NCBI GenBank assembly: GCA_963169195.1
Contig: CAUJDN010000065.1
Coordinates: 1 to 64,000 of the forward strand
Length of the DNA stretch: 64,000 nt
Source: Acidobacteriota bacterium
Lineage (GTDB): Bacteria; Acidobacteriota; Vicinamibacteria; Vicinamibacterales; UBA2999
Direction of reading: 5' to 3'
Shown here: positions 4,895 to 32,678 of the stretch, piece after piece
Layout: each line of letters starts with the position of its first letter
How positions within the stretch are numbered: position 1 is the first letter of the stretch
Notes under the pieces: generated by a model
The model's input: the letters and a program-made list of their open reading frames with translations, nothing else
Told to the model about the DNA's origin: nothing
The model's database searches: none
Made by a program: the position numbers and the translations under genes

Positions 4895-5935
<1,041 letters not shown>

Positions 5936-5942
5936 GCAGTGG

Positions 5943-5948
5943 AGTATA
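5943..5948 (-). promoter_or_regulatory. -10 element (TATACT) of the ABC exporter operon
   Basis: TATACT on the minus strand ends 7 bp before the ATG at 5935. No Shine-Dalgarno sequence lies in the remaining 7 bases. It is predicted to drive the four transporter genes and possibly the 1130-2128 gene. Confidence 0.6.
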
Positions 5949-5960
5949 CGGGGGGATGTC

Positions 5961-6533
5961 TCAGAGCGTTCCGCGCAACCCGAGTGCGTCGGCCTGCTCG
6001 CGCATCGACTCGATCACGTTGGTGATGTGCCGGTCCAGCGGCAGGCCCATCAACTCGGCCCCCTTCTTCAGGTGTTCCCGGGGCACCTGCCGCGCGAAGG
6101 CCTTGTCCTTCATCCGCTTCATCACCGACGAGGCCTCCAGGTCGAGCACGCTCCTGCTCGGCCGCACCAGGGCGGCGGCGGTCACGAAGCCGGCCATCTC
6201 GTCACAGGCCACCAGCGCACGTTCGAGCGGCGTCTCGGGCTCGACGCCGGTGATTTCCCACGCGTGCGCCTGGATCGCCCGCATCACCCATTCGGGATAC
6301 CCCAGCGACCGCAGGTGCTCGCACCCCTTGTTCGGGTGATCCCCCAGCGTCGGGTACCGCTCGTAGTCGAAATCGTGGAGCAGCGCCACCGCGCCCCACT
6401 CCTCTTCGCTGGCCCCCTGACGGCGGGCGTAGCCGCGCACCGCGGCCTCCACGGCCAGGGCGTGCTTCCGCAGGCTCTCGTTCTGTGTCCATTCAGTCAG
6501 CAGCTGCCAGGCAGCCTCTCGGGAGACGGTCAT
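5961..6533 (-). CDS. HD domain phosphohydrolase, alternative independent gene
   Basis: This 190-residue product starts at the ATG at 6533 inside the NUDIX-HD frame. It contains the metal-binding HD pair in [12 protein letters not shown], an upstream conserved histidine in [12 protein letters not shown], and the helices typical of HDIG-type hydrolases of nucleotides. Evidence for independent expression is a TATGAT ending exactly 6 bp before the ATG, the same arrangement as mtnA and mrdA in this window. The text before this start (repeat-encoded linker) has no domain character. The substrate is unknown. Confidence 0.65.
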   Translation of the reverse strand: MTVSREAAWQLLTEWTQNESLRKHALAVEAAVRGYARRQGASEEEWGAVALLHDFDYERYPTLGDHPNKGCEHLRSLGYPEWVMRAIQAHAWEITGVEPETPLERALVACDEMAGFVTAAALVRPSRSVLDLEASSVMKRMKDKAFARQVPREHLKKGAELMGLPLDRHITNVIESMREQADALGLRGTL

Positions 6534-7016
6534 CGGGCGATCATAGCGGAGGTGCTGGGGTCTTGAGGTCTTGAGGTCTTGGGGGCTTGGGGTCCAAGCC
6601 CCAAGGCCCTTCCGAATGACCGCCGCGGCGTGGGGATTCACGCCGTAGGCATCGAGCTGCCCGGCGGTGACCCAGGCCAGGTCGTCGGCATCGGTTCCGG
6701 CCACCGGCTCGCCCGTGTCCGCCCGACACAGGTAGTCCACGATCACGAAATGGAAGCGCACCCGGCCCGCGGCGTCGCGATGCACGCGGTCGAACGTCTC
6801 GACGATGGGGCCGACCTCCACCGCCAGCCCGGTCTCTTCCAGGATTTCGCGTCGGACGGCATCGGTCAGGCGCTCGCCGAGTTCCACCACGCCGCCCGGG
6901 AGCGACCACTCGCCCTTCCGTGGTTCCTGGGCGCGCCGAATGATCAGCGCGCGGCCATCCCGGACGACCACGCCGCCGACGCCCACCACCGGTCCGGAGG
7001 GATACTCTTTGGCCAT
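5961..7016 (-). CDS. NUDIX hydrolase-HD domain fusion frame
   Basis: One uninterrupted 351-codon frame joins two enzymes. Residues 1-140 are a NUDIX hydrolase with a complete Nudix box, G42-x5-E48-x7-REILEETG ending near residue 64, expected to cleave a nucleoside diphosphate linked to another moiety. Residues 162-351 are an HD-domain protein with [11 protein letters not shown], of the hydrolase type often annotated HDIG. The linker (about residues 141-161) is encoded by an 8-bp tandem repeat, which looks like former intergenic DNA. An internal ATG at 6533 has its own leaderless-type promoter, so the HD part is probably also or only made separately. The start codon is only 2 bp from the divergent yjbQ start. 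Confidence 0.7.
6540..6545 (-). promoter_or_regulatory. -10 element (TATGAT) for the HD-domain gene
   Basis: TATGAT ends exactly 6 bp before the ATG at 6533, placing the predicted +1 on the A of the start codon. It lies inside the linker of the NUDIX-HD frame. Confidence 0.6.
6560..6591. repeat. 8-bp tandem repeat (GTCTTGAG family), four units
   Basis: Two exact GTCTTGAG units (6560-6575) are followed by GTCTTGGG and GGCTTGGG. A small inverted repeat CTTGGGG/CCCCAAG (6586-6605) follows. The repeat encodes the linker of the NUDIX-HD frame and looks like non-coding spacer that has become readable. Confidence 0.8.
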
Positions 7017-7018
7017 CT

Positions 7019-7441
7019 ATGACGTCCCACACCGAGTATCTGACATTCAACCTGCCTGCGCGCATGGCGTTCGAGAACATCACGCCGCAGGTGGAGGCCG
7101 CCGTGCGCAAGAGCGGCGTCCGGGAAGGTCTCGTCCTGGTCAACGCCATGCACATCACGGCCTCGGTCTTCATCAACGATGACGAGCCGGGACTGCACCG
7201 GGACTACGCCGCCTGGCTGGAGCGCCTCGCGCCGTTCGATGCCTCGCCGGCGCGCTATGCGCACAACCGCACCGGCGAGGACAACGCCGACGCGCACATG
7301 AAACGGCAGGTCATGGGGCGCGAGGTCGTGGTGGCCATCACGGGCGGCCGGCTGGACTTCGGCCCGTGGGAGCAGATCTTCTACGGCGAGTTCGACGGGC
7401 GCCGCGCCAAGCGCGTGCTCGTGAAAGTGATTGGCGAGTGA
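7019..7441 (+). CDS. YjbQ family protein (UPF0047)
   Basis: A 140-residue single-domain protein of the YjbQ/UPF0047 family. Family signatures are the [19 protein letters not shown] stretch around residues 45-63, [19 protein letters not shown] around 83-101, and the final [19 protein letters not shown]. The clustered conserved histidines and aspartates suggest a metal or anion site. Some members are reported to have weak thiamine phosphate synthase activity; the physiological role is unclear. The ATG at 7019 is 2 bp from the divergent NUDIX start, so its promoter must lie inside the NUDIX coding sequence. TACTCT at 7003-7008 ends 10 bp upstream and is a candidate. Confidence 0.9.
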
Positions 7442-7452
7442 CCCGGCCGGAC

Positions 7453-8514
7453 TCAGAGCGCGAGAGCCGCCGCGGCGTTCAGGTCCGGCGGCGCCAGGGC
7501 GCCGCGTTCCAGCTGCCGCATCCCCGCCGCGGCGATCATCGCCGCGTTGTCGGTCGACAGCGACACGCGCGGGATGAAGACCGGGATCTCCAGGGCCGCG
7601 CCTCGGGTGGACGCCTCCCGGCGGAGCAGCGCGTTGGCGGACACCCCGCCCGCGATGCCGACCGCCCGCGCACCATGCCATCGCGCCGCCGCGAACGTCC
7701 GGTCGACGAGCGTGTCCACGACGCGGCGCTGGAAGCTCGCCGCGATGTCGCGCACCTCGTCGTCGGGCAGCGCTGTCGATCCGATGTCGGCCTGCCGCGC
7801 GCGGACGTGGCGGAGGACGGCGGTCTTCAGGCCGGAGAAGCTGAAGTCGAACCGCGCGTCGCGCTCGGGCGCGTTCCGATCGGGGTTCGTCAGGCGTGTC
7901 CCGGGCCAGTGGATGGCCCGGTCGTTCCCGGTGGCCCACAATCGATCGATGACGGGGCCGCCGGGGTATCCCAGGCCGAGCAGCTTCGCCACCTTGTCGT
8001 ACGCCTCGCCCGCCGCGTCGTCCCGCGTGCGGCCGAGCAGCGTGTACGCCCCCTCGACCCGCACGAGATAGAGGTTCGTGTGCCCGCCCGACACGACCAG
8101 CACGACGGCCGGGAGCGGGATCCGCCCGTGGTCCAGCCAGATGGACTCGATGTGCCCCGCCAGGTGATGGACGGCCACCAGCGGCCTGCCGAGCGACCAC
8201 GCCACCGCCTTCGCGAACGACACGCCAACCAGCAGGGAACCGATCAGCCCCGGCCCCTGCGTCACCGCCAGCGCGCCGACGCCCGGCCAGCCGGTCCCGG
8301 CATCGGCCAGGGCCCGCTCGACCACGCCGCAGATGTCGCGCACGTGCTGTCGCGAAGCCAGTTCCGGCACCACGCCTCCCCACTCGCGGTGGATGGCGAC
8401 CTGGGAGGCGACGACGCTGGAGCGGATGGCCCAGGGCCGCACGGCGTCGCCCGTCCGTTCCACGATGGCGGCGGCCGTCTCGTCGCACGAGGTTTCGATG
8501 GCGAGGAGGCGCAT
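7453..8514 (-). CDS. tsaD: tRNA N6-adenosine threonylcarbamoyltransferase TsaD
   Basis: TsaD transfers the threonylcarbamoyl group to A37 of ANN-decoding tRNAs, working with TsaB and TsaE. The 353-residue length fits the family. Diagnostic features are the start MRLLAIETSCDETAAA, the metal-binding HHLAGH motif near residues 107-112 (VAVHHLAGHIES), VVSGGHTNLY, and the ASKH-type phosphate loop GIAGGVSANALLR near the C-terminus. The start is placed at the ATG at 8514 because the conserved N-terminus begins there; 33 further in-frame residues upstream look non-coding. It follows mtnA after 52 bp on the same strand. Confidence 0.96.
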   Translation of the reverse strand: MRLLAIETSCDETAAAIVERTGDAVRPWAIRSSVVASQVAIHREWGGVVPELASRQHVRDICGVVERALADAGTGWPGVGALAVTQGPGLIGSLLVGVSFAKAVAWSLGRPLVAVHHLAGHIESIWLDHGRIPLPAVVLVVSGGHTNLYLVRVEGAYTLLGRTRDDAAGEAYDKVAKLLGLGYPGGPVIDRLWATGNDRAIHWPGTRLTNPDRNAPERDARFDFSFSGLKTAVLRHVRARQADIGSTALPDDEVRDIAASFQRRVVDTLVDRTFAAARWHGARAVGIAGGVSANALLRREASTRGAALEIPVFIPRVSLSTDNAAMIAAAGMRQLERGALAPPDLNAAAALAL

Positions 8515-8566
8515 CAGGTGCGTGCAGGGGTGCAGGCGTGCGTGGTACCGAGGCAAGGTGCACAGC

Positions 8567-9604
<1,038 letters not shown>

Positions 9605-10004: not shown

Positions 10005-10809
10005 TGACACCCTCCAGCAGCGAGATGAACCGTCCCTTGACGCGCCGCGCCGTCTCCACCACCTCCGCGTGGTGCAGGGGCGTCGGCAGGACTCCCGCCG
10101 CCATGTTCGTGATGCACGAGATGCCCAGCACCTCCATGCCCATGTGGCGCGCCACGATGGCTTCGGGGACGGTGGACATGCCGACGGCATCGGCGCCCAG
10201 CGCGCGGAACGCCCGGATTTCGGCGGGCGTTTCGTAGCTCGGCCCGTGCACGGCGATGTAGACGCCGCGCTCGAGCGGCACGCCGCGCTCGGCGCCCACG
10301 GCCGTGGCGAGGCCGCGAAGGCGCTGCGAGTACACCTCCGTCATATCCGGGAACCGTGGTCCGAAGCGCTCGTCGTTGGGGCCGACCAGCGGATTGCTGC
10401 CCATCAGGTTGATGTGATCGTCGATGAGCATCAGCGCGCCCCGGGCAAAGCGCGTGTTGATGCCGCCGGCGGCGTTGGTGACGATGACGCTCGGGACATC
10501 GAGGCGGCCCATCACCCGCATCGCGAAGGTGACCGTGCCGAGGGGATGTCCCTCGTAGCCGTGCACGCGCCCCGAGAGCGCGATCACCCGCCGCCCGCCC
10601 ACGAGCCCGCCCACCAGGCGGCCGGCGTGACCCACCACGGCGGAGGCCGGCCAGTGCGGGATGTCGCCATACGCCACCTCGAAGGGCTCCGACAGGCTCC
10701 CGGCGAAATCACCGAGTCCGGATCCGAGGACCACCGCCACCTCGGCGCCATGACACCCGCGCCCACGGAGGAACTCCGCGGCCTCCACGGCCTGCTCGAA
10801 CGTTGCCAC
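9991..10809 (-). CDS. punA: Purine nucleoside phosphorylase (PNP-I, trimeric type)
   Basis: It phosphorolyses (deoxy)inosine and guanosine to the base and (deoxy)ribose-1-phosphate. The 272-residue length suits the trimeric PNP family. Motifs are VVLGSGLGDF near residue 26, SGRVHGYEGH (phosphate and His86-type residue of PNPs), VTNAAGGINTRF, HGPSYETPAEIRAF and GMSTVPEAIVARHMG. The GTG at 10809 is preferred to the GTG at 10818 because TAGAGT ends 7 bp upstream of it. It lies between the transporter gene and cdd, matching a nucleoside uptake and breakdown pathway. Confidence 0.94.
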   Translation of the reverse strand: MATFEQAVEAAEFLRGRGCHGAEVAVVLGSGLGDFAGSLSEPFEVAYGDIPHWPASAVVGHAGRLVGGLVGGRRVIALSGRVHGYEGHPLGTVTFAMRVMGRLDVPSVIVTNAAGGINTRFARGALMLIDDHINLMGSNPLVGPNDERFGPRFPDMTEVYSQRLRGLATAVGAERGVPLERGVYIAVHGPSYETPAEIRAFRALGADAVGMSTVPEAIVARHMGMEVLGISCITNMAAGVLPTPLHHAEVVETARRVKGRFISLLEGVIERI

Positions 10810-10816
10810 GGTGCCC

Positions 10817-10822
10817 ACTCTA
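10817..10822 (-). promoter_or_regulatory. -10 element (TAGAGT) of punA
   Basis: TAGAGT lies in the 20-bp gap between the transporter stop and punA, ending 7 bp before the GTG. It would give punA-cdd a second, leaderless-type promoter inside the operon. Confidence 0.45.
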
Positions 10823-10829
10823 CCCCACG

Positions 10830-12161
10830 TCAGAGGAACATCGAGGCCACACAGGCGTTGATGAGCGTGGCGAGGAAGCCGGCCAGCAGCGCGCGCGCGC
10901 CGAGCCGGGCGAGGTCGCCGCGCCGGGAGGGCGCCATCGCGCCGATGCCTCCCAGCTGGATGCCGATCGAGCCGAGGTTGGCAAAGCCGGTGAGCGCGTA
11001 CGTCGCCAGGATGTGCGTGCGGGGATCGAGCACCCCCTTGTACTCGCCGGTCAGCTTCACGAACGCCACGAACTCGTTGGCCACCAGCTTGGTGCCCAGC
11101 AGGTCGGCCATCGCGGCGATGTCCCCGGCCGGGACCCCCATCAGGAACGCCACGGGCGCGAAGAGCACCGAGAAGACCTTCGCGAGCGTCAGGCCCGCCC
11201 AGGCCCAGCCGAGCAGCGCGTCCACCATCGCGATGAGGGCGAGGAAGGCGATGAGCATCGCCGCCACGTTGAGCGCCAGCATCAGCCCGTCGCTCGCGCC
11301 GGCGGCGGCGGCGTCGATCACGTTCACGTGGGTGCGCTCCACCTTGAGCGCGATCGCCCCTTCCGTCGCCGGCTGCTCGGTCTCCGGCATCAGGATCTTC
11401 GAGAGATACAGCCCGCACGGTGCCGCCATGACGCTCGTGGTGAGGATCGCAATCGGGTCGGCGCCGAGGCCGATGTACACCGCCATCACGCCGCCGGAGA
11501 TGGTCGCCATGCCGCCCACCATCAGGGCCAGCAGCTCCGATCGGGTCATGCCCGGCACATAGGGCTTGACGATGATCGGCGCCTCGGTCTGCCCCATGAA
11601 CACGTTGGCGGCCGCCGACAGCGTCTCGGCGCCGCTCGTGCCGAGCGCGTACATCATCAGGCGCGCCATCACCCAGACGATGAACTGCAGCACGCCGAAG
11701 TAGTAGAGCACGGTGAAGAAGGCGGAGATGAAGATGATGGTGGGCAGGGCGGAGAAGGCGAACACGAAGCCGTTCTCGGGTCCGAACGCCTGTCCGAGGA
11801 CCGCAGGATTGGCGAGCGCCCCGAAGACGAACGTCGCGCCCTGGTTGCTGAACTCCAGGAACCGCTTCACCAGGTCGCCCACGGCGCTGAAGAACGCGTA
11901 GCCGGGCTTCACGCCGCCGATGTCCAGCCGCAGGATGAAGGCGGCCAGCGCCAGCTGGATGGCCATGCCCCAGCCGACCGTTCGCCAGCGCACGGCCCGC
12001 AGGCTCGTCGAGCACACCGCGCAGATCGCGATGAAGCAGAGGGCACCCAGCCCCGCCTGACCGCGCGGGCCGATGAGGCCCGAGAGCAGCCAGGCCAGGG
12101 TCCCGAGCAGCCCGGCCAGGCCCAGTGCCGCCAGGCGGAGCGTGCGGTCCGACGAAGTCAT
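10830..12161 (-). CDS. Concentrative nucleoside transporter (NupC/CNT family)
   Basis: A 443-residue inner-membrane cation-coupled nucleoside importer. It has about ten hydrophobic segments and the CNT core motifs: GYAFFSAVGDLVKRFLEFSNQGATF (gate domain), GQTEAPIIVKPYV near residues 210-222 (the Q-x-E-A-P nucleoside-binding motif), and TGFANLGSIGIQLGG near the C-terminus (the S-N-F/ G-S-I-G motif). Its start overlaps the deoA stop (ATGA). Position between deoA and punA indicates nucleoside uptake for salvage. Confidence 0.95.
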   Translation of the reverse strand: MTSSDRTLRLAALGLAGLLGTLAWLLSGLIGPRGQAGLGALCFIAICAVCSTSLRAVRWRTVGWGMAIQLALAAFILRLDIGGVKPGYAFFSAVGDLVKRFLEFSNQGATFVFGALANPAVLGQAFGPENGFVFAFSALPTIIFISAFFTVLYYFGVLQFIVWVMARLMMYALGTSGAETLSAAANVFMGQTEAPIIVKPYVPGMTRSELLALMVGGMATISGGVMAVYIGLGADPIAILTTSVMAAPCGLYLSKILMPETEQPATEGAIALKVERTHVNVIDAAAAGASDGLMLALNVAAMLIAFLALIAMVDALLGWAWAGLTLAKVFSVLFAPVAFLMGVPAGDIAAMADLLGTKLVANEFVAFVKLTGEYKGVLDPRTHILATYALTGFANLGSIGIQLGGIGAMAPSRRGDLARLGARALLAGFLATLINACVASMFL

Positions 12162-13465
12162 GCGCGAATCCAGTCCAGGATGAGGGGCGGTGACGGGGGC
12201 GCGTGATCGCCGATCGTGACGGCCGCGGCCGCGAGGCGGCCGGCTTCATCGATCGGCCGCGCGTCGTTGTGATGCAGCACCATGAGCGGGGCACCGGCCC
12301 GGACCTCGTCACCGGGGGCCACCTCCAGGACGATGCCGGCGGCATGGTCGATGGGCGCGTCGGCGCGTTCCCGGCCTGCCCCGAGCAGCATCGAGGCACG
12401 GCCGACGCGCTCGGCATCCAGGGCCACGACGACTCCCGAACGCGGTGCCGGCACCGGTGTCCGCCCCCGCGCCTGCGGCAGCACCCGCTCGTCGTCGACG
12501 AGGCGGGCATCCCCGCCCTGGCGCGCGACCATCCGGCCGAACCGGGCCAGGGCCGCGCCGGACGCCAGCGCGTGCCGCACCCGCGCGGCCGCCTCGTCCT
12601 CGGTCGCCGCCTCCCCCGCCAGCCGCAGCATGTGCGTGGCGAGCCGGACGACGATCTCGGTGAGCGCCGCGGGGCCCCGGCCCCTGAGCGTCTCCACGCA
12701 CTCACGGACCTCGAGGGCATTGCCCACGGCCCGCCCGAGCGGCGCGTCCATCCGGGTGATCAGCGCCTCGGTGCGGACGCCCGCCGACGTCCCGATCGCC
12801 ACCAGCGACCGCGCCAGGGCCGTCGCCTCTTCGAGGGTCTTCATGAAGGCGCCGCGACCACACTTCACGTCCAGGACCAGCGCATCGCTGCCCTCTGCCA
12901 GCTTCTTGCTCATGATGGAGGCGGCGATGAGGGGGATGCTGTCGATCGTGGCCGTCACGTCGCGCAGGGCGTAGAGCGCCTTGTCGGCGGGGACGATGTT
13001 GGCCGTCTGCCCGATGATGGCGCAGCCGTTCTCGGCCAGCGCCGCGAGGAACTCCTCGATCGACAGGGCCGTGCGGAATCCGGGAATCGACTCGAGCTTG
13101 TCGAGCGTCCCGCCGGTGTGGCCGAGGCCGCGGCCCGACATCTTCGGCACGATCACGCCGCAGGCGGCCGCCACCGGCGCGAGGACAATGGAAACCTTGT
13201 CGCCCACCCCGCCGGTGCTGTGCTTCCCCACCTTGATGCCCGGGAGGCCCGACAGGTCCACCCGATCGCCCGACGCCACCATGGCACGCGTGAGGAGGAC
13301 TGTCTCGTCGGCCGTCATGCCCCGCAGCACGATGGCCATCAGCAGCGCCGCCGTCTGGTAGTCGGGCCAGGCGCCGGTCGACACACCCCGCACGAAGGTG
13401 TCGATGGCTTCCCGGGACAGCGGCAGGCCGTCGCGCTTCGCGCGGATGATGTCGACGGCGCGCAT
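12158..13465 (-). CDS. deoA: Thymidine/pyrimidine-nucleoside phosphorylase
   Basis: It cleaves thymidine, deoxyuridine and perhaps uridine to the base and sugar-1-phosphate. The 435-residue protein has the three-domain order of the family: the alpha domain with IRAKRDGLPLS, the glycine-rich phosphate loop GKHSTGGVGDKVS (residues 80-92), PKMSGRGLGHTGGTLDKLES, and DVKCGRGAFMKT with the catalytic lysine region. The N-terminus ALRDVTATIDSIPLIAASIMSKKLAEG matches the pyrimidine nucleoside phosphorylase (Pdp/DeoA) group. It is the first gene of the operon; the TATACT at 13482-13487 is its likely promoter, and it is divergent from the HEAT-repeat gene. Confidence 0.94.
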   Translation of the reverse strand: MRAVDIIRAKRDGLPLSREAIDTFVRGVSTGAWPDYQTAALLMAIVLRGMTADETVLLTRAMVASGDRVDLSGLPGIKVGKHSTGGVGDKVSIVLAPVAAACGVIVPKMSGRGLGHTGGTLDKLESIPGFRTALSIEEFLAALAENGCAIIGQTANIVPADKALYALRDVTATIDSIPLIAASIMSKKLAEGSDALVLDVKCGRGAFMKTLEEATALARSLVAIGTSAGVRTEALITRMDAPLGRAVGNALEVRECVETLRGRGPAALTEIVVRLATHMLRLAGEAATEDEAAARVRHALASGAALARFGRMVARQGGDARLVDDERVLPQARGRTPVPAPRSGVVVALDAERVGRASMLLGAGRERADAPIDHAAGIVLEVAPGDEVRAGAPLMVLHHNDARPIDEAGRLAAAAVTIGDHAPPSPPLILDWIRA

Positions 13466-13481
13466 GGGTGGGACGGCGGGC

Positions 13482-13487
13482 AGTATA
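13482..13487 (-). promoter_or_regulatory. -10 element (TATACT) of the deoA operon
   Basis: TATACT ends 16 bp before the deoA ATG, leaving a leader of about 10 bases without a Shine-Dalgarno sequence. It faces the divergent TAAAAT of the HEAT-repeat gene 20 bp away. Confidence 0.55.
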
Positions 13488-13507
13488 CCGCCGGGCCCGA
13501 CAGCCGG

Positions 13508-13513
13508 TAAAAT
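13508..13513 (+). promoter_or_regulatory. -10 element (TAAAAT) of the HEAT-repeat/HD-GYP operon
   Basis: TAAAAT ends 14 bp before the ATG at 13528 in the short divergent intergenic region with deoA. The predicted leader is about 8 bases. Confidence 0.5.
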
Positions 13514-13527
13514 CAGGCCGCGACTCC

Positions 13528-15828
13528 ATGTCCAGCGCCCAGAGGCCCGTCCCGATGAACGCCGAAGCGGCCAGCCGGCTCATGGAGTTCGCGCGCGCCT
13601 GCAAGGCGGCGACCCGCATCGTGTCGATGTACCCACCGACGCATCCGGCCATCGAGGGCGCGCTGCAGCGCATGCTGACGGCCGGGGCCCAGGCCACCGC
13701 CGAGGGGACCTTCACGGTGACCGTGCTTCCCGACACCCTGCTCGTGGACGGCCGCGGCCTCGCCAAGCCTGACGGCGCGGTCACCGACCTCGCGGTGATG
13801 CTCCACCAGCATCAGGTCGGCGAGCTGGTGCTGCTGGCGCCGCTCACGGCCGGCGCCTGGCACCTGTTGCTGTCCCTGCTGGCCATGCCGCCCGAGGACG
13901 TGCGCGGCGAAGGCGGGATTGCGCGCGCGTGGCAGGCGGCCGGCGGCGGCCCGATCGAGATCCGCGAGATCGACTACGCCGAGGTCCTCAAGGAACGCGC
14001 CGAGGGCACCGGCATCGAGGCCACGTGGGAGGAGCTGGTCGACAGCTGCCTCGCGGGCGACACGCGCGGCGCGCTCGACGAGAAGTCGCTCGCCTCGCTG
14101 CTCGACATCGCCCGCGATCCGCAGCGCCTCGGCGAGTTCATCAACCGCCTGCAGGAGCGTGCGCGGGCCGTGGGGCTCGCCACCGACGTCCAGAAGCAGT
14201 CCCTGCGCCGGATCCTCGAAGGGCTGGCGAATTACGCCGCGCAGGTGAACCCCGACGAGTTCGACGCGGTCATGAACAACGTCGCCGGGGGAACCACCCG
14301 CTTGACGCCCGAGCTGCTGCTCGGTCTGCTCAGCGCCCCGTCGCCGACGCCCGCCGCGGGCAGCGGGGCGGACGCCGCAGGGGACGCCGGCGACCCGCCG
14401 GGCGTGGATCTGGGCGGCGAACTCCGCGGGCGGTTCACCGAGGAGATGCTCGGCGCCTTCGTCGCCGAGAACGTGGTGCGCGACCGCGGTGCCACCGGCC
14501 GGCTCGCCGAGGCCTTCCATGCCCTGGCCACCGAGGATTCGCAGCGGCGGACCGCGCTGGCCCTGGCCGAGGAGCGGGTCTCGATGTCATCGCTCGGGGC
14601 CGATCCGCAATTCAACGACATCTGGGCGAGCGCGATGTCCATGTTGATGTCGTACACCGACGCCGACTACGTGCCCGACGCGTACGACCGCGAGTTGACG
14701 AGCGCCCGGGAGATGGCGGTCGAGGTCGAGCAGGTCAGCGACGACCCGCCCGATCGCATCGCGGCCTGGCTGTCGACCGTGGCCGACGACGACCTCCGCG
14801 CCCTCGACCAGCAGATGCTGGTGGACCTGCTGCGCCTGGAGGACCGTCCCGACGCGTGGGCCTCGGTGCTGGAGATCGCCATCACCCGCCTGGAGCAGCT
14901 CGTGCTCGTGGGCGACCTCGGGCTCGCCGGCGACCTGGCCGAGGCCATCGGCGGAATCGCGCGCGATCCGCGCTCGCCGTTCGCCAGCCAGGCCCGGGAC
15001 GGAATCGGTCGCGTGGCTGGAGGGGCGCTGGTGAAGAACCTCATGCTGTACATGCGCCAGGCCGACGACCAGGAGATGCCGCAGGCCGACCGGCTGTGCG
15101 CAGCGCTGGGGCCCGTCCTCGTCTCTCCCCTCGCCGCCGCGCTGGCCGCCGAGGAGAGCCGGCTCGCCGTGCGGCGGGCCAAGGACATCCTGATCGGCTT
15201 CGGCGATGCGGCCCGGGCCCCGGCGAAGGCCCTCAGGAACTCGTCGAATCCGGCGGTGCGCCGTGCGGCGATCGAGCTGCTGCGCGCCGTCGGGGGCGAG
15301 GATGCCCTGCCCGACCTGCGCACGCTGCTCGACGACGCCGACCCGCACGTGCAGCGGGAGGCGCTGCGGGCCATCGTTCACATCGGGAGCGACGACGCGT
15401 ACGCCATGCTCGAGGACGCCTTGAAGGCCGGCGACTCCAGCACCCGCGAGGCCATCATGCATGCCCTGGGGGCGCTGCACGACGAACGGGCCGCGCCCCT
15501 GCTCGCGCACATCCTCCGGCAGTCCGACCACCGGGGAGCGGCGGAGGCCGCCTACCGTTCGGCCATCGAGGCGCTGGGGCGGAGCGGCGCGCACCCGGAA
15601 GGCATCCAGGCCCTGCGCGACGTGCTCCACCGCGGGGAGTGGTGGGCACCCGGCCGCACGTCCCGCATCCGCCACGCCGCGGCGCTGGCCCTGTGGGCCA
15701 CCGCCTCGCCGGCAGGCGACGAGGCGCTTCAGGATGCCAGCCTCAGCGGCTCGCGCGGCGTCCGTGCCGCGGCCGCACGTGCGATGTCGATGCCGCGGCG
15801 GACACCGCCGGCAGGAGGAACCGCGTAA
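13528..15828 (+). CDS. HEAT-repeat protein with an N-terminal domain shared with the next gene
   Basis: A 766-residue cytoplasmic protein with no signal peptide. Residues 10-110 form an alpha/beta domain (MYPPTHPAIEGALQRML, then TVTVLPDTLLVDG) that is visibly related to the N-terminus of the next gene. Residues 560-750 are HEAT/PBS-lyase-like repeats, for example NPAVRRAAIELLRAVGGEDALPDL and DPHVQREALRAIVHIGSDDA. The middle is helical. The protein is probably a scaffold or regulator. It is coupled to the HD-GYP gene by a TAATG overlap, so the two likely act together. An alternative start is the ATG at 13555. Function is otherwise unknown. Confidence 0.85.
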   Translation: MSSAQRPVPMNAEAASRLMEFARACKAATRIVSMYPPTHPAIEGALQRMLTAGAQATAEGTFTVTVLPDTLLVDGRGLAKPDGAVTDLAVMLHQHQVGELVLLAPLTAGAWHLLLSLLAMPPEDVRGEGGIARAWQAAGGGPIEIREIDYAEVLKERAEGTGIEATWEELVDSCLAGDTRGALDEKSLASLLDIARDPQRLGEFINRLQERARAVGLATDVQKQSLRRILEGLANYAAQVNPDEFDAVMNNVAGGTTRLTPELLLGLLSAPSPTPAAGSGADAAGDAGDPPGVDLGGELRGRFTEEMLGAFVAENVVRDRGATGRLAEAFHALATEDSQRRTALALAEERVSMSSLGADPQFNDIWASAMSMLMSYTDADYVPDAYDRELTSAREMAVEVEQVSDDPPDRIAAWLSTVADDDLRALDQQMLVDLLRLEDRPDAWASVLEIAITRLEQLVLVGDLGLAGDLAEAIGGIARDPRSPFASQARDGIGRVAGGALVKNLMLYMRQADDQEMPQADRLCAALGPVLVSPLAAALAAEESRLAVRRAKDILIGFGDAARAPAKALRNSSNPAVRRAAIELLRAVGGEDALPDLRTLLDDADPHVQREALRAIVHIGSDDAYAMLEDALKAGDSSTREAIMHALGALHDERAAPLLAHILRQSDHRGAAEAAYRSAIEALGRSGAHPEGIQALRDVLHRGEWWAPGRTSRIRHAAALALWATASPAGDEALQDASLSGSRGVRAAAARAMSMPRRTPPAGGTA

Positions 15829-17222
15829 TGGAACCCGCCCGCCAGTTGCGCGTGGCCGAGGACTTCGTCCGCCGCTTCGCCGCCGCCCTGCGCGGGGCGC
15901 AGCTCTACACGCCAGGCCACCCGTTGGTCACGCGGGCGCTCGCCGCCCTCGCCGACGCGACCTCCCAGCTGCTCGCCGACCAGCCGAGCGTCGTCATGGG
16001 GCTCGTCGGCCACGAAATCGTCGTGGGCGAGGTCCCCCTCCCCCGCGCCGCCGAGAACTACGGGGAGCTCATGCGCCGGCTGAAGCGCCTCGGCATCGAG
16101 CGCATCGCGTTCGATCACGGCGTGACACCGGACGAGCTCACGACGCTGACCCTGACGCTCAGCCATCCCGAACGTGCCGTGGGCCAGTCCGCGCCCGGCG
16201 CCGCGCCGTCCGAGGCGCTCGACACGCTCCATCGCCTGCTCCACATCCGAGTGGGGCGCATCAAGGTGGACGAGCGCATCGACACGTCCGCGGCCGACAT
16301 CGCCGCCATCCGGCGGCTCTATGTCGAGGCCTCGGCCGTCGCCGAGGAGGTCTGGGAAGCCGCCAAGACCGAGGGCACTCCCGACGCCCGGCAGGCGCGG
16401 ACGCTCATCGAGCAGCTCTCGCAGGCCGTCGCTCAGAACCGCACGGCGCTGCTCGCGCTCACGGCCCTGAAGGAATACGACAACTACACGTTCACACACA
16501 TGGTGAACGTGTCCATCCTGACCATGGCGCAGGCCCGGGCCCTCGGCATCGACGGGACTCTGCTCCGCGAGTTCGGCCTGGCCGGTCTCATGCACGACAT
16601 CGGGAAGGTCCGGACCCCGGCGGAAATCCTCCGGAAACCCGATCGCCTCACCGAGGACGAGATGTCGGTGATGCGCCGGCACGTGGTGGACGGCGCCGAG
16701 ATCCTGCGCCGCACACCGGAGATCCCGTCCATCGCCCCGGTGGTCGCCTTCGAGCACCACCTGCGCACCGACGGCACCGGGTATCCGGTCGGCGTGTCGC
16801 GCGCGAAGCTGAACCTGGCCACGATGCTCTGCAGCATCGCCGACGTGTACGATGCCATGCGATCGCAGCGCGCCTACCAGGGGTCCCTCCCGACCGAGCG
16901 CATCCTCGAGGTGATGAAGCGCGCGGACGGGCACCAGTTCGATCAGCACCTCGTCCGCCGCTTCACGCAGTTGCTCGGGATCTATCCACCCGGAAACCTG
17001 GTCCAACTGGATGACGGGGCCATTGCCGTGGTGCTGCAGGTGCACGCGCCGGATCCGCATCGCCCGCGCGTGCGCGTCATCATGGACGGCAAGCGACGCC
17101 GGCTGACGACACCCGTGGACATCAACCTGTTCGAGGACCCGGCCGATCCGACGCGGGCGCGCCGGATCGTCGCCCCCCTGGATCCAGCCGAATTCGGCAT
17201 CGATCCGCTCGGCTACCTGTAG
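15828..17222 (+). CDS. HD-GYP domain cyclic di-GMP phosphodiesterase
   Basis: A 464-residue protein. Residues 10-115 repeat the N-terminal domain of the upstream gene. The HD-GYP domain spans about 215-395: H224 in THMVNV, GLMHDIGK with H256/D257, RRHVVDGAEIL with H285, FEHH (H310-H311) and DGTGYP (315-320). HD-GYP enzymes hydrolyse c-di-GMP to pGpG or GMP with a bi- or trinuclear metal site, and all expected ligands appear present. About 70 residues follow, with a small beta-rich tail. AGGAGGA lies 9 bp before the ATG, and the start overlaps the previous stop by one base. Confidence 0.94.
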   Translation: MEPARQLRVAEDFVRRFAAALRGAQLYTPGHPLVTRALAALADATSQLLADQPSVVMGLVGHEIVVGEVPLPRAAENYGELMRRLKRLGIERIAFDHGVTPDELTTLTLTLSHPERAVGQSAPGAAPSEALDTLHRLLHIRVGRIKVDERIDTSAADIAAIRRLYVEASAVAEEVWEAAKTEGTPDARQARTLIEQLSQAVAQNRTALLALTALKEYDNYTFTHMVNVSILTMAQARALGIDGTLLREFGLAGLMHDIGKVRTPAEILRKPDRLTEDEMSVMRRHVVDGAEILRRTPEIPSIAPVVAFEHHLRTDGTGYPVGVSRAKLNLATMLCSIADVYDAMRSQRAYQGSLPTERILEVMKRADGHQFDQHLVRRFTQLLGIYPPGNLVQLDDGAIAVVLQVHAPDPHRPRVRVIMDGKRRRLTTPVDINLFEDPADPTRARRIVAPLDPAEFGIDPLGYL

Positions 17223-17233
17223 CCCTGGTGCCC

Positions 17234-18889
17234 ATGGCCCGAACCACCCTCGTGAAGATGGCCGTCGTTCGCCGCCTGGCCGCGGCCGGAATCCTGCTGG
17301 CCTTCCTCGGCGCAGGGCCGCCGCCCGCCGCACAGACGGCGGCGTCGCCCCGCCTGCTCGTCGTCCTGGTCGTGGACCAGATGCGGTTCGACTACATCGA
17401 TCAGATGCGTACCCGCTGGACGCGCGGGCTGAAGCGACTCGTCACCGAGGGCGCCGTCTTCGAGCAGAGTCACTATCCATACCTCCAGACCGTGACCTGT
17501 GCCGGCCACGCGACCATCGGCACGGGCACGTTCCCGGCCACGCACGGCATCATCCTCAACGCCTGGTGGCGCGGGACGCGGAACGCCCCGTGCACGGAAG
17601 ACGCCACCGTGAAGGCCGTCCCCTACGAGCCCGATGCCGAGGTCGTGGGCCACAGCGCCGTCCAGCTGCTCGTGCCCACGATGGCCGATCGCCTGCGTGC
17701 CGCGTCCCCCGAATCGCGTGTGGTCAGCCTGTCCATCAAGCCACGAAGCGCCATCATGATGGCGGGATCGGGCGGCGTCGTCGCGTGGACGGACGACCGC
17801 AACCGGTGGGCCACCTCCACCGCATACGCCGCGGCGCCCGATCCGGACATCCAGGCGTTCCTGGCGGCGCACCCACGGCTCGCGGTCCGCAGCGAGGTGT
17901 GGGAACGCCTGGTCGACCCGAGCACCTACACCGGCAGCGACGCCGGCGTGGGCGAGAAGCCGCCGAGCGGCTGGACCGCAGAGTTCCCACACGCCCTGTC
18001 GGGCGCTCCGGGCACGAGCGACGGGCAGTTCTACACGCTGTGGGAGCACAGTCCCTATGCCGATGCCTACCTCGGTCGCATGGCCGCGGACCTCGTGGAA
18101 CGGAAGGCGCTCGGGCAGCGGGCGGCCGTGGATGTCCTCGGCGTGAGCTTCTCCGCGCTGGACTACGTCGGCCACAAGTTCGGGCCCGGGAGCCACGAGG
18201 TCCAGGACACCCTCCTGCGGCTGGATCGCACAATCGGCGACATGCTGGACGCGCTCGATCGACTGGTCGGACCGGGCCGGTACCTGGTGGGCCTCAGCGC
18301 AGACCACGGCGTCGCCCCGATTCCGGAAGCCCGGACGGCTTCGGGGCAGGACGGCGGCCGCGTCCCGACGCAACGGCTGAGGCAGGCGGCCAACGCCGCG
18401 CTGGTGGAGGTGCTGGGGCCGGGACAGCACGTCGCGCGGGCGGAGTACACGCAGATCTATCTCACCGCTGCGGCCCGTCAGCGCGTGCTGGAAGCCCCGG
18501 CTCTCTTGCTGCCCGTCACCGCGGCCCTCGAGCGCATTCCGGGCATCGCGCGCGCCCTGCCGGGCGCCGGTCTCGAGCGCGAGCGCACATCGTCCGATCC
18601 CAACGTGCGGGCCGCGGCGCTCAGCCACGTTCCGGGCCGAAGCGGCGAGATTGTGGTCGTTCCCAGGCCGTACTACGTCATCGGCGGCGCCGATGCGACG
18701 ACGCACGGAACGCATCAGCCCTACGATCAGCACGTGCCGCTCATCTTCTTCGGGGCCGGCGTGAAGCCAGGGCGGTATGGGGCGCCGTCCACTCCCGCCG
18801 ATCTCGCACCCACGCTGGCCGCCAGCATCGATCTGGCGATGCCCGGCGTCGACGGCGTGGCGCGCACCGAGGTGTTTCACCGTCGGTGA
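17234..18889 (+). CDS. Secreted alkaline phosphatase superfamily protein (PafA-like)
   Basis: A 551-residue exported enzyme with a signal peptide (residues 1-36, cleavage near PAAQ-TAA). Alkaline-phosphatase fold motifs are the metal aspartate in LVVLVVDQMRFDY, the nucleophile region QTVTCAGHATIGTG (probably Thr88), DVLGVSFSALDYVGHKFGP with the second metal set, SADHGVAP and the final HGTHQPYDQHVPLIFFG. This pattern fits PafA-type calcium- or zinc-dependent phosphomonoesterases or phosphodiesterases. The start could also be GTG at 17228; the ATG is preferred. It follows the HD-GYP gene after 11 bp. Confidence 0.9.
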   Translation: MARTTLVKMAVVRRLAAAGILLAFLGAGPPPAAQTAASPRLLVVLVVDQMRFDYIDQMRTRWTRGLKRLVTEGAVFEQSHYPYLQTVTCAGHATIGTGTFPATHGIILNAWWRGTRNAPCTEDATVKAVPYEPDAEVVGHSAVQLLVPTMADRLRAASPESRVVSLSIKPRSAIMMAGSGGVVAWTDDRNRWATSTAYAAAPDPDIQAFLAAHPRLAVRSEVWERLVDPSTYTGSDAGVGEKPPSGWTAEFPHALSGAPGTSDGQFYTLWEHSPYADAYLGRMAADLVERKALGQRAAVDVLGVSFSALDYVGHKFGPGSHEVQDTLLRLDRTIGDMLDALDRLVGPGRYLVGLSADHGVAPIPEARTASGQDGGRVPTQRLRQAANAALVEVLGPGQHVARAEYTQIYLTAAARQRVLEAPALLLPVTAALERIPGIARALPGAGLERERTSSDPNVRAAALSHVPGRSGEIVVVPRPYYVIGGADATTHGTHQPYDQHVPLIFFGAGVKPGRYGAPSTPADLAPTLAASIDLAMPGVDGVARTEVFHRR

Positions 18890-18935
18890 CCGGCCTCCTG
18901 ACGGATAATGGAACGCCTGCCTTGATCGGACGGCT

Positions 18936-20513
<1,578 letters not shown>

Positions 20514-31613: not shown

Positions 31614-32678
31614 TCAGCCCTCGCCCGGAGGCGGCAGGGCCACCTGCACCCCGTTCTTGCCCGAGTTCTTCACCTGATACATCGCCATATCGGCCGCTCG
31701 CACCAACTCTTCAGCGGACGTCGCCACATCGGGCAATGTGGCGATGCCGACCGAGGCGGTCAGCCGCAGGCTCAACCCGTCGCCGGCCAGGAACGGATGC
31801 GCTTCGATCCGGTCCCGGACCCGCTCTCCCACCGCCACGGCCCCTTCGGCGCCGGTGTCGGGCAGGATGATGGAGAACTCGTCGCCGCCGAACCGGGCGA
31901 CTACGTCGGTCTCGCGGGCCGAGCCGCGGATGACGGCAGCGGCCTCGACCAGCGCGCGGCTGCCCGCCAGGTGCCCGTGCCCGTCGTTGACCGTCTTGAA
32001 CCCGTCGAGGTCCAGGAAGAGCAGCGACAGCGGCCGGCCCGAACGCGACGCGCGCTTGGCCTCCCGCCTGAGCACGTGGTTCAGGTACCGGGAGTTGTAG
32101 AGCTGTGTCAGGTCGTCGGTGACCGAGAGCGCCTCGGCGCGCCGCAACATCAACGCGTTGTCGAGGGCCTGTGCGGGCCCCTCGAGGGCCACACCCAGCA
32201 ACTCGGCGAACGCCGGCGTGATCCGAGGCGCCGTGGAGGACGCGGCACGTTCTATCACGACGAGAGCCGCCACCGTGCGTGTCCGGCAGCGAAGCGGCCA
32301 TCCAATGGCGGCTCCCGCCGCAGCGGAGAGCCGGTTGTCGTGCCGCGCGTCGGCGGTGGTCAGTTCCCGCCCGCGTAGCAGCACCCAGCGCGCAATCTCG
32401 AGCGCGGCCGGAGAGAGCGAGGTGCCGAGGCCACGTGACGCCAGGGCCGACACCTGCCCTTCGAGATCGGCCGCGAACACCCCGCAGGCGGGCGTCTTGA
32501 ACCACTCGAGGGCGAGCTTCACCACCTGCTCGCCAATTTCCGCGGCTTCGAGCGACTCGTGGGCGGCACGCATCACCGCCAGCACCGTCTCGGGACGGCC
32601 GAGCCGCCCCTTCAGCACGCGCTGGCTACGCCCCAGCCGCTGGGCCAGGTCGATGCGGCGAGAACCGCCGTAAGTCAT
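31614..32678 (-). CDS. GGDEF-domain diguanylate cyclase with an N-terminal sensory (GAF-like) domain
   Basis: A 354-residue cytoplasmic protein. Residues 35-170 resemble a GAF domain (VFAADLEGQVSALASRG and later AAIGWPLRCRTRTVAALVVIER). Residues 185-350 are a GGDEF domain: DDLTQLYNSRYLN, LLFLDLDGFKTVNDGHGHLAGS, and ARFGGDEFSIIL with the active GGDEF at 264-268. The inhibitory I-site RETD (255-258) lies exactly five residues upstream, so c-di-GMP synthesis with product feedback is expected. It heads the mreB operon and is divergent from the PPIase gene. Confidence 0.95.
   Translation of the reverse strand: MTYGGSRRIDLAQRLGRSQRVLKGRLGRPETVLAVMRAAHESLEAAEIGEQVVKLALEWFKTPACGVFAADLEGQVSALASRGLGTSLSPAALEIARWVLLRGRELTTADARHDNRLSAAAGAAIGWPLRCRTRTVAALVVIERAASSTAPRITPAFAELLGVALEGPAQALDNALMLRRAEALSVTDDLTQLYNSRYLNHVLRREAKRASRSGRPLSLLFLDLDGFKTVNDGHGHLAGSRALVEAAAVIRGSARETDVVARFGGDEFSIILPDTGAEGAVAVGERVRDRIEAHPFLAGDGLSLRLTASVGIATLPDVATSAEELVRAADMAMYQVKNSGKNGVQVALPPPGEG

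Follow-up and report, generated by a model that had tools for sequence, protein, structure and literature searches.

Two adjacent genes in a 64,000-nucleotide stretch of DNA from an Acidobacteriota bacterium (contig CAUJDN010000065.1; the whole stretch is called the window here) raise the question of what joins a HEAT-repeat protein to an HD-GYP protein that begins with what looks like the same domain. The initial annotation of this locus had assigned both genes to positions 13528-17222, and open reading frames and Pfam matches confirmed these identities and coordinates. Both genes are located on the forward strand: the HEAT-repeat gene extends from the ATG at 13528 to the TAA at 15828 (766 amino acids [aa]) and the HD-GYP gene from the ATG at 15828 to the stop codon at 17222 (464 aa). 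Stop and start have one base in common within the sequence TAATG (15826-15830, +). The genes had been called translationally coupled; the overlap itself stands, and it suggests that coupling may occur.

The initial annotation had aligned residues 10-110 of the HEAT protein with residues 10-115 of the HD-GYP protein by eye and had let this proposal depend on a profile match between the two N-termini. A direct BLASTP comparison gave an E value of 4e-4 over 40 residues, which is suggestive only. Homologues were gathered from 99 relatives and their loci, and profiles of 59 HEAT and 58 HD-GYP homologues were compared. With hhalign, the two N-terminal profiles matched with a probability of 98.4% (E value of 4.4e-15) over 134 columns, and four sub-comparisons between the N-domains of the A and B copies described below gave 97.2 to 98.3%. 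Control comparisons of the N-domains with the middle or C-terminal part of the HEAT protein or the C-terminal part of the HD-GYP protein reached 0.1, 0.7, 0.9, 2.4, and 8.2%. One control, the N-terminus of the HD-GYP protein against its own C-terminus, reached 86.7%, which we regard as a slicing artefact because the match covered only 22 columns at an artificial cut point. Judged by these profiles, the N-termini of the HEAT and HD-GYP proteins are homologous. The alignment by eye was therefore correct, but its ranges were slightly short, as the homology reaches to about residue 145-150.

The shared domain is about 140 residues long, has 19% pairwise identity between the HEAT and the HD-GYP protein, and carries the signature R-x(4)-L-Y-x-P-x-H-P. 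Among 34 aligned sequences, no exchange occurred at the Y or the H of Y-x-P-x-H-P, and the R before them and the P after them were almost invariant. According to hhalign and the structural models, the domain comprises residues about 12-147 of the HEAT protein (13561-13968, +; motif R-x4-M-Y-P-P-T-H-P) and residues about 3-143 of the HD-GYP protein (15834-16256, +; motif R-G-A-Q-L-Y-T-P-G-H-P). AlphaFold models of the two N-termini, made from separate alignments, agreed in the order of their elements, with both showing helix, helix, strand, strand, (strand), helix, strand, helix, helix, strand. The elements (H, helix; E, strand) were H12-34, H40-56, E62-66, E71-73, H83-94, E97-102, H108-119, H122-127, H131-137, and E143-147 in the HEAT protein and H3-26, H32-49, E54-60, E63-66, E69-71, H79-87, E92-96, H101-112, H127-135, and E140-143 in the HD-GYP protein. 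The mean predicted local distance difference test score (pLDDT) was 86.7 for the HD-GYP model and 79.5 for the HEAT model, the latter being low at residues 274-290 and 380-418. As modelled, the domain consists of two long helices meeting at the Y-x-P-x-H-P turn, followed by a small alpha/beta part.

The initial annotation had no family name for this domain, and Pfam and NCBIfam do not provide one. Pfam detected nothing in either N-terminus, and searches with 34 members against Pfam and 50 against NCBIfam gave single-member chance matches only, with DUF3391, PAS, GAF, and REC among the profiles that failed to match over the cut-off. The domain matched no PDB sequence; against PDB structures, the best Foldseek hit had an E value of 0.45 and a template modeling (TM) score of 0.21, and the best VIA-align hits, with a Z score of 4.9, were to unrelated helical chains. 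As none of these searches gave a convincing match, naming the domain after a known family or fold was dropped; the lack of a structural match does not establish that the fold is new.

In the genome of the window, the N-domain is present in two copies only, which are adjacent and correspond to this pair. The domain was found in 100 of the 297 Acidobacteriota genomes sampled. A domain-bearing HEAT gene was located directly before a domain-bearing HD-GYP gene on the same strand in 90 of 95 cases overall (56 of 58 in Vicinamibacterales, 23 of 26 in the wider phylum sample, and all 11 of a set of HD-GYP loci fetched later, three of which are from Acidobacteriota). Since the order-level loci were reached through the HEAT gene, the informative part there is that an HD-GYP gene comes after it. 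Two further pairs were found in a metagenome-assembled genome (MAG) labelled Nitriliruptoraceae (locus L122) and in WOR-3 (L124). Among 36 genomes searched behind named loci, 10 contained the domain. The pairs among these came from MAGs under the labels Gemmatimonadetes, Thermodesulfovibrionales, Deltaproteobacteria, and Syntrophobacterales, so that by MAG label, which may be wrong, six lineages outside Acidobacteriota possess the pair. The recurrence of the two genes side by side across distantly related bacteria indicates that they probably form one signalling unit. One locus labelled 'Cyanobacteria bacterium' (L119, JAIEMQ010000075.1) shares its gene layout with contig G028:C70 of the window's family, and its label is probably wrong. 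In a single case (L222:4857-6506, -), a HEAT-type N-domain and linker read in frame into an HD-GYP domain, which may represent a natural fusion of both partners or may stem from a deletion or an assembly error.

Gene order and trees indicate that the two genes were duplicated together in Vicinamibacterales. At 18 loci (within L036-L056, e.g., L036:4185-11534), HEAT-B, HD-B, HEAT-A, and HD-A follow each other in a row. Full-length protein trees for HEAT and for HD-GYP agree: in each, B is set apart from A with strong support, and a third copy (L057, L059, L061, and L064) takes the same position inside A. The HEAT gene of the window is copy A of this order-wide family, with orthologues showing 88% and 63% identity within the genus and 35-52% within the family and order. 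The window and its near relatives L067 and L068 have pair A only, and in the window's genus 62 bases separate the divergent nucleoside phosphorylase gene from HEAT-A. Together with the tandem pairs of the relatives, this suggests that pair B was probably lost.

The HD-GYP catalytic domains linked to the N-domain probably have a single origin within the sampled set. In a tree calculated without the N-domain columns, 27 domain-linked catalytic domains from several phyla formed one side of a branch (Shimodaira-Hasegawa-like approximate likelihood ratio test [SH-aLRT] value of 96), separated from 42 others originating from loci where no N-domain was found. As this was a quick tree of 181 columns, support for the single branch, and with it for one origin of the linkage, is moderate. 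The domain tree separated HEAT-type from HD-type N-domains. In a held-out test, models trained on Acidobacteriota classified 10 of 19 domains correctly across phyla, while models trained on Vicinamibacterales only were correct in 60 of 76 cases overall and in 52 of 57 within the phylum. Because the test failed across phyla, the assumption of a single split before all phyla was dropped, and the split is claimed within the phylum only.

The catalytic domain of the HD-GYP protein (16476-16952, +; residues about 217-375), delimited by its conserved ligand residues and an alignment with PmGH, matched the Pfam families HD_5 (E value of 2.5e-20, 73.4 bits versus a cut-off of 27.2) and HD (4.4e-15, 56.4 bits versus 22). 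It contains all seven ligand-equivalent residues (H224, H256, D257, H285, H310, H311, and D339), the catalytic K260, and the GYP motif (G318, Y319, P320), and these positions were invariant in 57 order-level copies A and B. The position of PmGH E185 is occupied by Y220 in a Y-T-F motif, and the carboxylate of the trinuclear E/D-T-G subgroup is thus absent. For the Y/F subgroup of HD-GYP proteins, a two-metal instead of a three-metal centre was predicted (PMC4159591). The replacement of E185 by Y220 places the window enzyme in this subgroup, and its metal centre is predicted to be binuclear. Its best relative in the PDB was the c-di-GMP (cyclic di-GMP) enzyme PmGH (4mcw, E value of 2.6e-27), followed by the cGAMP (cyclic GMP-AMP)-specific V-cGAP3 (5z7c, 3.1e-20).

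Twofold occurrence of the N-domain was also observed within single large proteins (1426-1546 aa) of deltaproteobacterial, Syntrophobacterales, Gemmatimonadetes, and Acidobacteriota genomes (L269:183-4547 and 5138-9505; L270:5510-9859 and 10569-14855; L271:4923-9560; L236:582-4859), which in two genomes are encoded by two tandem genes. A Pfam scan of the proteins from L269, L271, and L236 revealed GGDEF, AAA_16, and HEAT repeats in addition to the two N-domains, which were recognised by the profile with E values of 1e-14 to 1e-20. We know of no description of such GGDEF-AAA_16-(N-domain)2-HEAT proteins. The idea that they combine one HEAT-type with one HD-type domain was not supported by the held-out classification. 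Taken with the HD-GYP pairs, these fusions link the N-domain to cyclic-dinucleotide synthesis as well as breakdown, and HEAT repeats are found either within the domain-bearing protein or in its neighbour.

With slightly better than even confidence, we explain the locus as one cytosolic two-protein cyclic-dinucleotide module in which the N-domains join the HEAT alpha-solenoid to the HD-GYP phosphodiesterase. The N-domains would dock or dimerise and thereby connect solenoid and enzyme; the solenoid would carry signal input or bind a target, the scaffolded phosphodiesterase would lower the local level of c-di-GMP or of a related cyclic dinucleotide, and the TAATG overlap would keep both proteins at matched amounts. 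This reading draws on the homology and common predicted fold of the N-domains, the two adjacent copies in the genome, the conserved gene order, the tandem duplication, the separate branch of domain-linked catalytic domains, the invariant ligand residues, the GGDEF fusions, the GGDEF matches of the genome, and the HD-GYP protein's lack of a strongly transmembrane-like stretch. Physical binding of the two proteins through the N-domain, the scaffold role, and the ligand, signal, target, and substrate are what we infer. The initial annotation had proposed a nameless two-protein system in which duplicate domains, sensory or dimerising, feed into a repeat scaffold on the one hand and a phosphodiesterase for c-di-GMP on the other. 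The profile match, the conserved pairing, and the absence of a description in the open-access texts searched support this proposal, with the sensory or dimerising role itself remaining putative. In a broader and more tentative form, to which we give rather less than even credence, the module would extend across several phyla, with an undescribed domain duplicated within the pair, a HEAT:HD-GYP complex, and, in other lineages, the GGDEF-AAA-(domain)2-HEAT proteins on the side of synthesis.

Several observations weigh against the two-protein module. Each protein might use its N-domain to bind a ligand on its own. Several Acidobacteriota families have a domain-bearing HEAT protein without an HD-GYP neighbour. 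The HD-GYP copies of L204, L205, L206, and L226 have lost metal ligands or the GYP motif and are still located behind the HEAT gene; persistence of the pair with a degenerate HD-GYP protein in these few Acidobacteriota lineages suggests that catalysis is not always the point. Finally, the genome encodes three further HD-GYP proteins and has five EAL matches, so that the window enzyme is not the sole breakdown route. Histidine kinase genes were observed next to or near partnerless HEAT genes (L211:4103-5167, L212:11540-12607, and L203:1462-3000), in L211 and L212 directly after the HEAT gene, which suggests another output for these HEAT proteins.

The main rival, possible but clearly less probable than the joined module, assumes that the N-domain is a ligand sensor used twice: each protein would homodimerise and answer the same cue in parallel without binding the other, and the gene overlap would serve co-expression. 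This agrees with the HEAT-only proteins lacking a partner, with the two consecutive N-domains of the GGDEF-AAA-HEAT proteins, an arrangement often seen with sensory domains, and with a candidate binding site in the Y and H of the helix turn, which hardly vary. However, strict one-to-one adjacency, fixed gene order, and duplication as a unit exceed what parallel sensors would need.

We consider it unlikely that the HD-GYP protein is instead a cyclic-dinucleotide receptor or trigger enzyme, whose binding with slow turnover would alter the HEAT contact rather than messenger levels. Such a role has a precedent in DvhD, in which an HD-GYP domain that has lost the HD pair acts as a pure c-di-GMP receptor (PMC13090378), and it is kept possible by the pairs with a degenerate HD-GYP protein; Tyr220 in place of PmGH E185, with two predicted metals rather than three, also fits. 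In contrast to DvhD, the seven ligand equivalents, the lysine, and the GYP motif are invariant throughout the 57 order-level copies. Similarly doubtful is the assumption that another cyclic dinucleotide, e.g., 3',3'-cGAMP, is degraded and that the module is not a c-di-GMP system. V-cGAP3 as second-best PDB relative would be in line with this assumption, whereas PmGH as best relative, the many GGDEF matches of the genome, and the fusion of the domain to GGDEF elsewhere speak for c-di-GMP, none of which fixes the specificity. That the N-terminal similarity reflects convergent helical sequence and the neighbourhood an accident, as 19% identity and the short BLASTP match might suggest, is hardly credible and was refuted by the hhalign match with its clean controls, the same predicted fold, and a neighbourhood conserved in many families.

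The remaining features of the locus are as follows. The alpha-solenoid of the HEAT protein (14014-15789, +; residues about 163-754) is all helical in the AlphaFold model, with HEAT repeats recognisable at residues 567-642 and around (Pfam HEAT_2, E value of 1.6e-28, 99.2 bits versus a cut-off of 27.7). The HD-GYP protein has no strongly transmembrane-like stretch (maximum KD19 of 1.25), and its C-terminal extension (16980-17219, +; residues 385-464), with conserved P387, P413, and D459, matched no Pfam family. The genome contains 12 GGDEF matches, two of which are halves of one frame, and has the means to make the messenger; together with its EAL matches and other HD-GYP proteins, this makes a cyclic-di-GMP signalling system probable. 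A GGDEF diguanylate cyclase gene lies about 14 kb from the pair (31653-32123, -; open frame of 354 aa). The pair is flanked upstream by the divergent pyrimidine nucleoside phosphorylase gene (12161-13465, -) and downstream by genes for a type I phosphodiesterase/nucleotide pyrophosphatase and a subtilase (17228-20510, +). These flanking genes recur within the order; as the neighbours differ in other families, they were not counted as operon partners.

No description of the HEAT/HD-GYP pair or its shared domain was found in open-access full texts, outside of which most subscription papers fall, and an open-access search for HD-GYP, HEAT repeats, and Acidobacteria found no paper on this combination, with few co-mentions that were genome-scale by title. 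The HD-GYP and HEAT parts are known; the domain they have in common and the conserved pairing seem not to have been described in the texts searched. An enzyme here has a domain in common with a separate scaffold protein encoded just upstream, an arrangement whose conservation extends from Acidobacteriota to Gemmatimonadota and further. It offers a testable route to the organisation of local cyclic-dinucleotide signalling in hard-to-culture soil bacteria, and with a model of the N-domain, many proteins of the 'HEAT repeat' and 'HD domain' kind could be annotated together.

The sensory part of HD-GYP enzymes is usually a known domain, e.g., REC, GAF, or PAS. The window enzyme resembles the c-di-GMP phosphodiesterases PmGH and RpfG in its HD pair, double histidine, GYP motif, other ligands, and lysine. 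It differs from both in that its N-terminal domain belongs to no Pfam family, REC, GAF, and PAS included, and that genes of its type are nearly always located behind a HEAT gene bearing the same domain, and from PmGH in having a tyrosine for E185. With DvhD it would share the placement of an HD-GYP module in a multi-protein cyclic-di-GMP switch (PMC13090378); DvhD, however, possesses a periplasmic dCache domain and a PAS domain and has lost metal ligands, whereas the residues of the window enzyme are intact and no such domains were seen. The HEAT protein resembles bacterial HEAT_2 or phycobilisome (PBS)-lyase-type HEAT proteins in its all-helical solenoid model and in the HEAT_2 match over cut-off in its C-terminal third, with phycobilin-lyase models far under the cut-off, but is distinguished from them by the nameless alpha/beta N-domain and the HD-GYP gene partner. 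The GGDEF-AAA_16-(N-domain)2-HEAT proteins have the same N-domain and HEAT repeats as the pair and, unlike the pair, unite them with diguanylate cyclase and ATPase parts in one polypeptide.

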